A stretch of DNA of 64,000 bases, from assembly GCF_016863275.1 (NCBI RefSeq), contig NZ_BOOO01000019.1, forward strand, positions 186,001 to 250,000, given 5' to 3'. The DNA is from Planotetraspora mira. GTDB lineage: Bacteria; Actinomycetota; Actinomycetes; Streptosporangiales; Streptosporangiaceae. This document shows positions 31,167-33,873 of this stretch, in pieces. The notes under the pieces were generated by a model. The model had not been told where the DNA came from, ran no database searches, and worked only from the letters and a program-made list of their open reading frames with translations. A program made the translations under genes and the position numbers. The first letter of the stretch is position 1; every line of letters starts with the position of its first letter.

Positions 31167-31287
31167 ACGAGCAGTTCAGCGTGAACCGGCAACAAGCCAT
31201 CGTGCGAGGCCGGTTTCAGCGAATGGCCCACCGGGCCGAAGAATCGGGCATATCGCACATATATGTACATTCGAAATCCGACATATA

Positions 31288-31316
31288 CGACAATCTATAT
31301 CAAAATGATCTAGACT
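31288..31316 (+). promoter_or_regulatory. Candidate promoter of leader A
   Basis: CGACAA (31288-31293) and TAGACT (31311-31316) are separated by 17 nt in an AT-rich stretch that stands out from the surrounding high-GC DNA. The paralogous locus has a similar arrangement (TGACAT at 33242-33247 and TCTAGC at 33265-33270). Transcription from here would give a leader of about 180 nt. Confidence 0.45.
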
Positions 31317-31319
31317 AAC

Positions 31320-31500
31320 CTAAAGCAGTTAATAACGAGATAAGCAAGCGCCAATATCCCGTGATCATCGTTTATCACCCTCTCTGCGCGGAAAATAAGA
31401 CAAAGCAGGCACTACCTATCAAAGGTAGCCTGACGGACATTTTCCACATCATTGGGAAAACGTCGCAGCGTAGAGAAATCAAACCTTTCACGGGGGAAAA
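31320..31500 (+). ncRNA. Structured 5' leader A (candidate cis-regulatory RNA)
   Basis: An AT-rich leader before the first small secreted protein. In order it has box 1 AATAACGAGATAAGC (31331-31345), a weak hairpin GTGAT/ATCAC (31361-31378), box 2 CGGAAAATAAGACAA (31389-31403), a bulged hairpin CAGG-ca-CTACCT-loop ATCAA-AGGTAG-CCTG (31406-31432), a second hairpin GACATTTTCC/GGAAAACGTC (31436-31464, one mismatch) and GGGGGA just before the ATG. The same order occurs before the paralogue at 33457. Cis-regulatory function is inference; no known riboswitch class was recognised. Confidence 0.5.
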
Positions 31501-31854
31501 ATGCCCAACTTCAAGAGCCTCGTCGGGGTTCTCGCCATCAGCACCGCGCTGACCGGCGGGGCCGTCGCGCTCGGCACCGCGGTCACCACCGGCGCAGCGA
31601 ACGCCAGCACTGTCATGGGTTGCGGCGGCGGCTGCGGAGGTGGCGGTTGCGGATGGGGCCGCGGGCACCGCAACCACAACCGCAACTTCAACCACCAGCG
31701 GCAGCACACCCGTCAGCGCCAGCACCAGAACCAGCACCTGCTGCGCGACTTCACGCTGATCGTGACGCCGTTCCAATCGAGCGACACCCAGGCCACTCCG
31801 TGGCAGAGGCAGGCCACCGACTCGGCGGCTCACCCGATCACCGGCCTGAACTGA
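31501..31854 (+). CDS. Small secreted Gly/Cys/His-rich protein A
   Basis: A 117-residue protein of unknown function. Residues 1-36 form a signal peptide with cleavage after AANA. The mature part starts with a Gly/Cys run (three Cys in CGGGCGGGGC), continues with a His/Asn/Arg/Gln-rich basic stretch (RGHRNHNRNFNHQRQH) and then LLRDFTLIVTPFQ before a low-complexity tail. Cys and His content suggests possible metal binding; basic charge could favour cell-wall contact. It is paralogous to the protein at 33457: the signal-peptide codons are almost identical. GGGGG lies 4 nt before the ATG. A strong terminator follows. Small size with such regulation suggests high expression under a specific condition. 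Confidence 0.75.
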   Translation: MPNFKSLVGVLAISTALTGGAVALGTAVTTGAANASTVMGCGGGCGGGGCGWGRGHRNHNRNFNHQRQHTRQRQHQNQHLLRDFTLIVTPFQSSDTQATPWQRQATDSAAHPITGLN

Positions 31855-31943
31855 CAATCGGGCCATGGACGTGCCGTACCTGGCCGTTTCCCGTAGAGCC
31901 GACCTGATGGCGCGCGCCGTCTAGTCCTTCTCGGGATCGACCG

Positions 31944-31987
31944 GAAGCCGGCCGCCGACGATTCGTTCCGTCAGCGGCCGGCTTCTT
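31944..31987. terminator. Terminator after secreted protein A
   Basis: A perfect 12-bp stem GAAGCCGGCCGC / GCGGCCGGCTTC with an 18-nt loop, followed by TT. It is 90 nt past the stop at 31854. The rest of the interval to 32197 holds only the short upstream region of the SUKH gene, with no other element seen. Confidence 0.75.
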
Positions 31988-32197
31988 GCGTCGGCGGCCT
32001 CACCCGAGCAGGGACACGACCACAGCTCCCCACTGCGGTCTCCATCCCGGCTCACCACCGCCTACAGCGTCACAGACCCGGCTGAGACGCCGGGCGCCGT
32101 CCCCGTACGCCCCCGAAAAACCGAGCGATCAGGTTATTGCGCGGACTGGGTCCGTTAGCAATCAGGAGCGCGCCATGCGTGGCTAAGATCGCCGGCT

Positions 32198-33037
32198 ATG
32201 ACGACGATCGACAGGTTGGCACACCTTGCGGCGCCCCCGGCGTCGCCGGTCGACGCGGACGAGGACTGGGCCGTGGCCGAGGCGGAGTTGGGCCTGGAAC
32301 TGCCTTCCGACTTCAAGGAACTGGTCCGGCGGTATGGCGTCGGCAACTTCTGCGATTACCTTTTCACGCATCCGATGCGCTCTTTGATCGACTACAACCT
32401 GGAACTGCTGGAGGCGAACCGGCTCGACCGGGTGGAGTACCCGAGTTGGTATCGGTACCCGCTCTACCCGGAACCGGGCGGGCTGCTGCTGTGGGGGGCG
32501 ACCTTCAGCGGCGATCGGCTGTGCTGGCTCACCGGCGGCCACCCGGATTCCTGGCCGGTGGTGGTGTGGAATCCACGCGACTCCGAGTTCCTGCCGCAGG
32601 GCGTGGGCGTGGTCGAATTCATCGAGGCCGGAGTCAGCGGACGGACCGAACTGTTCTTCGACGAAGACGAGGAGGACAAGACCGCGTGGTTCGAGCCTTA
32701 CCGAGAACTGGTCCAGGTCCATGTAAGGCTGGCCGACGGCGAATTCCCCTACCTTGATCGTCTTCGGATCTTGCGTGAGGCGCTGGCACCCACGGCCAAC
32801 CGAGGAAGCGTGGAGACCTTGGACGGAAGCCGGCAAGATCACTTCGCCGCCACCGAGGCGATGTGGAACGTGACCTACGAGACGATGTACGGCCACCAGA
32901 TCCGGATCGCGTTCCCTCCCGATTCCGAAGACGAGGTTCGTGTCAAGATCATGGCTGCGGTCGAGTCCATGGGATGCCAGGTGCTGTCCGCGGGTCGCGC
33001 CGACGGGGAGGCGGTTTGGGTCGCCGGCACGAACTGA
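32198..33037 (+). CDS. SUKH (SMI1/KNR4) family protein
   Basis: A 279-residue protein. The N-terminal 170 residues have the SUKH fold pattern: AEAELGLELPSDFKELVRRYGVGNF, given here only in part, is the diagnostic start, followed by LLLWGATFSGDRLCWLT and WPVVVWNPRDSEF. A C-terminal region of about 90 residues (from about 190) includes a further alpha/beta segment ending ADGEAVWVAGTN. In bacteria SUKH proteins often serve as immunity proteins against secreted nuclease-type toxins. No toxin gene is adjacent; the neighbours are two small secreted paralogues, so the role is open. No signal peptide. Confidence 0.82.
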   Translation: MTTIDRLAHLAAPPASPVDADEDWAVAEAELGLELPSDFKELVRRYGVGNFCDYLFTHPMRSLIDYNLELLEANRLDRVEYPSWYRYPLYPEPGGLLLWGATFSGDRLCWLTGGHPDSWPVVVWNPRDSEFLPQGVGVVEFIEAGVSGRTELFFDEDEEDKTAWFEPYRELVQVHVRLADGEFPYLDRLRILREALAPTANRGSVETLDGSRQDHFAATEAMWNVTYETMYGHQIRIAFPPDSEDEVRVKIMAAVESMGCQVLSAGRADGEAVWVAGTN

Positions 33038-33274
33038 CCTGGTACGGCAAACTCCCCCGCCGCCACCGGGCCACCATCGCCGTCGTCGACGGTCGGCTCG
33101 CACCGGCTTTGCGGTCAGGCACCCCTTCCTGACCTCCAGACCTTCGGCTGCGACGCGGAATCCGCCCCCTCGAGATGCGATCCACTGATTGGGAAATCCG
33201 AAATATCACCCCATATTCGGATATGCGAAATGCGACATAAATGACATTTCCCTGCAAGGTGCGCTCTAGCAGTC
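33038..33274. other. Intergenic interval upstream of leader B
   Basis: No gene seen. The last 90 nt (from 33185) are AT-rich and share GAAAT, CGACATA and GACA words with the region upstream of leader A; TGACAT (33242) and TCTAG (33265-33269) occupy the promoter position. Confidence 0.4.
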
Positions 33275-33456
33275 CAACGTCGTCAATAAAGAGATAAGCG
33301 GTATGTAAAAGCTGCCTATCACCGTTTGTCGCGCGAGCGACACGGAAAACAAGACAATGTATGGACGATCCACCAAGGATCGCCAGAAAAACATTTTCCA
33401 GTCTATTTGGAAAATGTCAGCGCATAGGGCACAAGTCCTTTCAAGGGGGAAATGAA
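33275..33456 (+). ncRNA. Structured 5' leader B (candidate cis-regulatory RNA)
   Basis: The second copy of the leader. It has box 1 AATAAAGAGATAAGC (33285-33299), a hairpin TGTCGC-GCGA-GCGACA with GNRA-type loop (33327-33342), box 2 CGGAAAACAAGACAA (33343-33357), a bulged hairpin TGG-a-CGATCC-loop ACCAA-GGATCG-CCA (33362-33385), a perfect 10-bp hairpin ACATTTTCCA/TGGAAAATGT (33391-33417), then AAGGGGG before the ATG. The bulged hairpin keeps stem length, bulge side and a 5-nt AYCAA loop relative to leader A while its stem bases differ, as expected for selected RNA structure. Function is inferred. Confidence 0.5.
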
Positions 33457-33873
33457 ATGCCCAACTTCAAGAGCCTCGTCGGAGTTCTCGCCATCAGCAC
33501 CGCGCTGACCGGCGGAGCCGTCGCGCTCGGTGCCGCTGTCACCAGCAGCGCCGCGAACGCCACCACCGTCATGGGTGGCGGCGGCGGCTGCGGCGGCGGT
33601 GGCTGGGGCCGGGGTCACCGGAACCGCAACCACAACTGGAGCCGCAACCAGGCGCGTCAGCACGAGCGTCAGCACCAGCACCAGCGCCAGTACCTGCTCC
33701 GCGACTTCACCCTGCTCGTGACGCCCTTCCAGAAGAGCGAGAACCAGGCCGTCACGCAGCAGAAGCAGGACACCGACTCCAAGTCGAAGGCGGAGGCCGA
33801 GGGCTACTACGGGGCGCCTCGTCCGGTCGTCACCGTCACGGCCACGCTGATTCCGCCCGCCCCAGTGGTGTGA
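33457..33873 (+). CDS. Small secreted Gly/His-rich protein B
   Basis: A 138-residue paralogue of the protein at 31501. The signal peptide (1-36, cleavage after AANA) is nearly the same at DNA level. The mature part keeps the Gly run but has one Cys, then the basic His/Asn/Arg/Gln region (RGHRNRNHNWSRNQ) and LLRDFTLLVTPFQ. It differs in a longer C-terminus with a Lys/Glu stretch and a Pro/Val-rich end (VVTVTATLIPPAPVV). Only one cysteine remains, so a Cys-based metal site common to both is unlikely, while the His-rich part is shared. The frame continues upstream into the leader; ATG 33457 is set by homology and AAGGGGG. Function unknown. Confidence 0.75.
   Translation: MPNFKSLVGVLAISTALTGGAVALGAAVTSSAANATTVMGGGGGCGGGGWGRGHRNRNHNWSRNQARQHERQHQHQRQYLLRDFTLLVTPFQKSENQAVTQQKQDTDSKSKAEAEGYYGAPRPVVTVTATLIPPAPVV

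Follow-up and report, generated by a model that had tools for sequence, protein, structure and literature searches.

In Streptomyces coelicolor, the promoters read by homologues of the sigma factor SigB are similar to the Bacillus subtilis SigB consensus GTTTAA-N12-14-GGG(A/T)A(A/T), and GTTT is described as more strictly maintained in the promoters of SigF, SigH and SigN, the factors of sporulation; the tabulated -10 elements include GGGAAA and GGTAAA, and the first three G of the SigB-type -10 element are described as almost invariant (PMC8346170). SspA of S. coelicolor is a SigF-dependent exported lipoprotein with PepSY domains that is associated with sporulation, and its promoter reads GTGT-16N-GGTTAC (PMC4282423). 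At the level of the message, the ompA leader of Escherichia coli and the aprE leader of B. subtilis are given as 5' UTRs that stabilize their mRNAs (PMC7509114).

The window analyzed here, a 64,000-nt stretch of the 9.03-Mb genome of Planotetraspora mira, contains two leaders that resemble each of these systems in part. Like the ompA and aprE leaders, each has a hairpin near its predicted 5' end and then a strong Shine-Dalgarno sequence. Unlike them, it has two hairpins, is repeated many times per genome and is tied to a signal peptide, and a stabilizing effect would be ascribed to it by analogy. The cargo of the leader is similar to SspA in being an exported protein under predicted control of a SigB-family sigma factor, whereas SspA is set apart by its lipoprotein nature, its PepSY domains and its promoter sequence. 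Like riboswitches and other Rfam families, the leader is conserved and precedes genes, but it has no match in Rfam 15 at the gathering score, whether in the whole window or in the loci of ten relatives, and none of the seven Rfam matches found up to an E-value of 5 overlaps either leader. This result agrees with an earlier note on this DNA, in which no known riboswitch class was recognized. In a limited literature search, which is not proof of absence in print, we found no described element that fits the leader. We lean toward the explanation that the leader is not one RNA but a composite expression module, in which a promoter, a 5' UTR with twin hairpins and a conserved signal peptide form a front end that is reused for unrelated cargo.

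Both leaders lie on the + strand and have the same order of elements, which is box A, box B, GTTT, CGGAAAA, a bulged hairpin (P2), a second hairpin (P3), GGGGG and ATG. In leader 1, box A (GTTAATAACGAGATAAGC; 31328..31345), a probable DNA element as judged from its spacing and from its lack of a clear fold signal, is followed by box B (31350..31359), a degenerate form of GCAAAAGCC that is recognized by its distance to GTTT. The predicted -35 element GTTTAT (31370..31375) and the predicted -10 element CGGAAAA (31389..31395) were assigned with the motif GTTT-N15..17-GGn[AT]A, and the latter was compared with SigB-family promoters. The second conserved box, CGGAAAATAAGACAAAG (31389-31405), contains the predicted transcript start region (31398..31404), which was placed by its distance to the -10 element. 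Next come P2 (31406..31432), with the inner stem CTACCT/AGGTAG and the loop ATCAA, and P3 (31436..31464), both supported by pair counts and fold z-scores, then the Shine-Dalgarno sequence GGGGG (31492..31496) and an ORF for a small, predicted exported protein of 117 aa (31501..31854, with the ATG at 31501), which has paralogues.

In leader 2, spacing and conservation identify box A (GTCAATAAAGAGATAAGC; 33282..33299) and box B (GTAAAAGC; 33305..33312), and conservation together with the same motif predicts a -35 element GTTTGT (33324..33329) and a -10 element CGGAAAA (33343..33349). The second conserved box, CGGAAAACAAGACAATG (33343-33359), again contains a predicted transcript start region (33352..33358). 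Pair counts and fold tests support P2 (33362..33385), with the inner stem CGATCC/GGATCG and the loop ACCAA, and P3 (33391..33417), and GGGGG (33445..33449) precedes a predicted exported protein of 138 aa (33457..33873), whose ATG at 33457 was chosen by homology. An in-frame ATG at 33361, at the edge of P2, would give a longer ORF of 170 aa, and automatic gene callers may choose it. A gene with a SUKH domain (SMI1/KNR4) lies between the two leaders (32198-33037). When leader 2 was used as a query against its own genome, bases 74-201 of the query matched leader 1 with 72% identity (E = 4.0e-11), which indicates that the likeness is not due to chance; the nine matches listed were leader 2 itself, leader 1 and seven elsewhere, two of them short. 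The earlier note had described the two leaders as having common boxes (AATAAmGAGATAAGC and CGGAAAAyAAGACAA), two hairpins and a G-rich ribosome site, and had pointed to a bulged hairpin that keeps its shape with different inner stems. The former description is borne out with slightly changed coordinates, and the latter can be read directly in the sequence; the strongly conserved GTTT element between the two boxes is absent from that note.

To describe the element beyond the window, a profile was built from 11 leaders, which gave 97 matches (56 distinct, at 68 loci), and 25 of the 56 distinct matches make up the covariance model R1. Each of five Planotetraspora genomes contains 11-14 matches to R1, although two of the 11 in one genome (G003) are weak. 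The earlier note had called for a covariance-model search of actinobacterial genomes, and further homologues were indeed found, with R1 matches in 103 of 297 Streptosporangiaceae genomes (16 of 68 genera). Matches were also present in 115 of 345 genomes of the order (16 of 70 genera), a set that overlaps the family search, and in 9 of 394 genomes in a class-wide sample, all nine of which are Streptosporangiaceae. These searches scored the best nine, eight and seven candidates per genome for family, order and class, respectively, so the copy numbers are lower bounds. Within the limits of so few scored candidates per genome, the leader looks confined to Streptosporangiaceae. For alignment, 91 loci were picked out of 153 to avoid duplicates, which yielded 128 copies from 16 genera. 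All 128 copies (123 distinct rows) entered the pair-count test on P2 and P3, and a set of 107, reduced at 95% identity, was used for the all-pairs scans, the fold tests, spacing, bits and motif counts.

The 117-aa and 138-aa proteins are paralogues. In both, a start that resembles a signal peptide is combined with a Gly/Cys stretch and a tail rich in His, Asn and Gln, and neither matched a Pfam or NCBIfam family above the cut-off. Thus, the paralogy asserted in the earlier note is confirmed, and the secretion asserted with it is predicted from the signal-peptide-like starts. The 138-aa protein has 15 matches in its own genome, which correspond to 14 genes. Among 13 aligned paralogue starts, 11 carry the leader, and the two that do not are located behind another paralogue in tandem; the 14th gene, also in tandem, was left out of the start alignment and has no model match nearby. 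At L003:2376 and L007:1495, later tandem genes have the same type of signal peptide and only a ribosome site, with no leader, and are perhaps co-transcribed.

Downstream genes could be assigned to 125 of the 128 matches, as the other three are without downstream sequence. A regular expression for a signal-peptide start was passed by 120 of these 125 proteins; of the five that failed, three (L130, L141 and L147) look signal-like by eye, one (L128) probably uses a GTG start, and the fifth (L138:1501-1673) is from a gene that apparently has no start codon at the expected place and is perhaps a decayed copy. When only the first 38 residues were compared, 117 of the 125 proteins fell into one BLAST cluster, with a consensus that begins MPKFKSLVGVLAISTALTGGAVALGA. 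The parts past residue 38 were split into a cluster of 55 and numerous small clusters, the number of which is inflated by low-complexity filtering. Pfam identified a PF00144 serine hydrolase behind leader L147 (E = 5.3e-53) and a PQQ_2 propeller behind leader L126 (E = 6.8e-16). A single signal-peptide cluster joined to a varied remainder indicates that the front end is reused for different proteins. By eye, the cargo of L141, L142 and L146 also looks like PF00144.

We examined P2 and P3 for evidence of pairing. In an alignment that was fitted to the structure, with copies found by a model that rewards P2/P3 pairing and therefore favors those hairpins, 85.3% of the cells in the 18 modeled pairs were paired across the 128 copies (123 distinct rows), versus 71.9% in shuffled controls and 35-57% with a slid partner. 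Cells changed on both sides numbered 293, versus a shuffled mean of 89 and a slid range of 37-84, and such changes occurred in all 18 pairs (shuffled mean, 15.6). Because the alignment was fitted to the structure and the search rewarded pairing, a fold test was run on a sequence-only alignment, in which each region was scored against its own dinucleotide shuffles and the leaders in the lowest 5% were counted. For leaders from loci outside the seed, some of which may belong to Microtetraspora, the second genus in the seed, the hairpin stretch reached the lowest 5% in 39 of 53, and for the remaining leaders it did so in 41 of 54. All of these leaders, like those of the second fold test below, had been found with the model that favors the hairpins. 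The corresponding counts were near background for both the box region (5 of 53 and 3 of 54) and the Shine-Dalgarno region (0 of 51 and 4 of 53), for the latter of which short segments were excluded. The DNA 65 nt farther upstream was in the lowest 5% in 10 of 107, which is also near background. When the fold test was instead run on the model columns, P2 and P3 were in the lowest 5% in 79 of 105 and 79 of 106 leaders, with short segments again excluded from the 107, and the Shine-Dalgarno region was in 5 of 106. The box region was in 14 of 107 (mean z, -0.70) in this run, which used a slightly shorter segment, and this count is above the 5% expected. Structure comparable to P2 and P3 was found nowhere else in the leader.

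The all-pairs scans, for which the null was generated by a custom script rather than by R-scape, gave a more divided result. In the model-fitted alignment of 107 rows, the only one on which the scan was strong, the top five of 14,878 pairs belong to P2/P3, with E-values of 0 (in 30 null sets), 0.17, 1.1, 1.2 and 1.7, and the sixth does not. In an alignment made without structure, the scan was not significant, with the top two of 14,535 pairs located in P3 and P2 (E = 3.2 and 3.8), and with the best 60 sequences, also without structure, the top pairs were elsewhere and the first P2 pair ranked 14th (E = 21). RNAalifold predicted P2, P3 and two other helices from a trimmed 56-row alignment and P2 with other helices from a 25-row alignment; it predicted zero pairs from the tool's own 56-row alignment. 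The covariation that the earlier note proposed to check is therefore strong by pair counts but not significant by the all-pairs test without structure. The pair counts and the fold signal support its claim that compensatory changes maintain a structure in the leader, and selection appears to act on the pairing of P2 and P3, with their letters mostly free.

The most conserved letters of the leader are found outside the hairpins. Conservation reaches 1.74 bits in GGAAA and 1.51 bits in GTTT and its neighbors, versus 0.29 bits in the spacer between them and 0.35-0.84 bits in the stems and loops of P2 and P3. Distances are also kept, with 21 nt from AATAA to CAAAA in 90 of 107 leaders, 17 nt from CAAAA (box B) to GTTT in 104, and 20 nt from GTTT to GGAAA in 92. 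Fixed distances across spacers with free letters, in the absence of pairing, are how a promoter and operator behave, which suggests that the boxes are probably DNA rather than RNA. Of the 107 leaders, 102 contain the motif GTTT-N15..17-GGn[AT]A, versus a mean of 0.6 of 107 in shuffles, and its commonest -10 forms, GGAAAT (43) and GGAAAA (30), are one letter off GGGWAW. The composite GTTTG-N15-GGAAAN thus resembles a promoter of the SigB/SigF family with one base off, from which the sigma type is predicted. In comparison with such promoters of Streptomyces and Bacillus, as described in PMC8346170, the leader has GTTT at -35, a -10 element of G then A, and a spacing that fits. In contrast, its -10 element is mostly GGAAAN with A as the third base, where the same text has an almost invariant G, which counts against the SigB reading; the form GTTT-N15..17-GGGTA was present in 0 of 107 leaders. 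The leader also differs from those promoters in having two extra upstream boxes at a fixed distance. An AT-rich motif with repeated GACAT (e.g., CGACATAAATGACATTT) is present at 31280-31295 and 33234-33250, about 30-50 bp upstream of box A, and also upstream of box A in several other genera, and may be a second operator. As for a housekeeping sigma-70 promoter, the plus strand gave no match, and the single match is on the minus strand (33420-33393).

Several other explanations of the leader were weighed against the composite module. One of them holds that the whole 175-nt leader is RNA, with the boxes, P2 and P3 acting together as a ligand- or protein-binding riboregulator of the translation of exported proteins. 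The high conservation of the boxes across genera would fit this explanation, as would two candidate P1 helices for the boxes (GAUAAGC/GUUUGUC and GRCAAA/UUUGYC), in which 82% and 80% of the cells are paired, versus 33-51% when slid. However, the double changes in these helices, 6 and 8, are within the slid ranges of 4-29 and 7-41. The hexamer CCUUUC immediately 5' of the Shine-Dalgarno sequence (31484-31496 and 33437-33449 for the stretch that includes both) is conserved at 1.23 bits and could mask the ribosome site, yet a Shine-Dalgarno hairpin shows 2 double changes, or 12 in its other register, versus 1-19 when slid, and does not fold beyond shuffles. This hexamer, CCTTTC in the DNA, resembles the 3' end of 16S rRNA. 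Between 31150 and 33950, a terminator-like site was found only at 32367-32379, away from the leaders, which offers no terminator or attenuator. Thus, a paired core holding the conserved residues was not found by what is an indirect test, as the boxes show little fold signal and none of the helices proposed for them covaries beyond slid controls, and an expression platform was not found either. Spacers of constant length but free sequence are not typical of folded RNA, and the cargo is varied rather than from a single pathway. Taken together, these results make the all-RNA riboregulator unlikely. Of the candidate new cis-regulatory RNA put forward in the earlier note, the structured leader, its many homologues and the lack of an Rfam family stand; what falls is the placement of the boxes in the RNA, given that their region folds about like shuffles, and the riboswitch-like whole, as neither aptamer, terminator nor Shine-Dalgarno switch is supported.

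It is very improbable that the leaders are alike merely through duplication of a gene with its upstream DNA, with hairpins that have no function. In favor of such duplication, many copies are paralogues and several are in tandem, pair counts can be inflated by kinship among the rows, and the all-pairs scan of unfitted alignments was not significant. Against it, the sequences of the stems vary across 16 genera while their pairing persists, at a level far higher than for slid partners, and the cargo behind the leader is unrelated. Somewhat less likely than the riboregulator, and well ahead of duplication, is that P2 and P3 form the site for a post-transcriptional regulator, either an RNA-binding protein or a small RNA that acts on the P2 loop, which co-ordinates exported proteins. 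The P2 loop is slightly conserved, at 0.65 bits versus 0.35 in the P3 loop, and is about as conserved as the P2 stems (0.61 bits), which leaves room for a regulator that binds the loop; its commonest strings among the 107 leaders are CACCAAG (6), CAUUAGG (6), CACUAAG (5) and UAUCAAA (4). In contrast, loop conservation is weak, and in L140 and L151 the model matches 121 nt only, with one hairpin left by eye.

Under the composite module that we favor, a promoter for an alternative sigma factor of the SigB/SigF type, together with two upstream boxes for a putative activator, would initiate transcription at a predicted start 2-10 nt before P2. The mRNA would then open with a 5' UTR of about 100 nt that carries P2 and P3, selected for shape and free in most letters, followed by the strong Shine-Dalgarno sequence and the codons of the conserved signal peptide. 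Two hairpins at the predicted 5' end, with no terminator and no Shine-Dalgarno switch, point to 5'-end protection as the likeliest role of P2 and P3, and binding of a regulator ranks second. By guarding the 5' end from nucleases, the hairpins may give rise to long-lived messages for exported proteins, and the front end would have spread by repeated copying and fusion to exported cargo of unrelated kinds. Such an element would be an RNA that Rfam 15 does not contain, and the unannotated exported proteins behind it would form a regulon in a large family of soil actinobacteria. As a natural example of one front-end module serving unrelated cargo, it would also allow tests of how new exported proteins originate and of the role of 5' hairpins in the life of actinobacterial mRNA, and it could be developed into a portable cassette for expression and secretion in these hosts.

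We also considered which factor might read the promoter. In the P. mira genome, CAAAAGC-N8..13-CGTTTG has seven matches (control, 0), all in leaders, and CGTTTG-N14..16-GGAAA has ten (reversed control, 1), nine of which are inside leaders. If a general SigB-type factor read it, the motif would be expected to front other genes too, so this restriction, which is a further difference from SigB/SigF promoters, counts against such a factor and may point to a reader devoted to these leaders. We therefore raise, tentatively and with less confidence than the module itself, the possibility of a dedicated Streptosporangiaceae system, in which a sigma factor or activator specific to this promoter would drive a portable front end and thereby place an exported repertoire under one control with one RNA-level property. 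The genome encodes two SigB/F/G-type sigma factors above the NCBIfam cut-off, and four more sigma genes match nearly the full SigB/F/G model below it. The sole match of CGTTTG-N14..16-GGAAA outside a leader (L168; G000:C23:3291-3316) precedes an ORF that, by eye, resembles an NAD-dependent epimerase.
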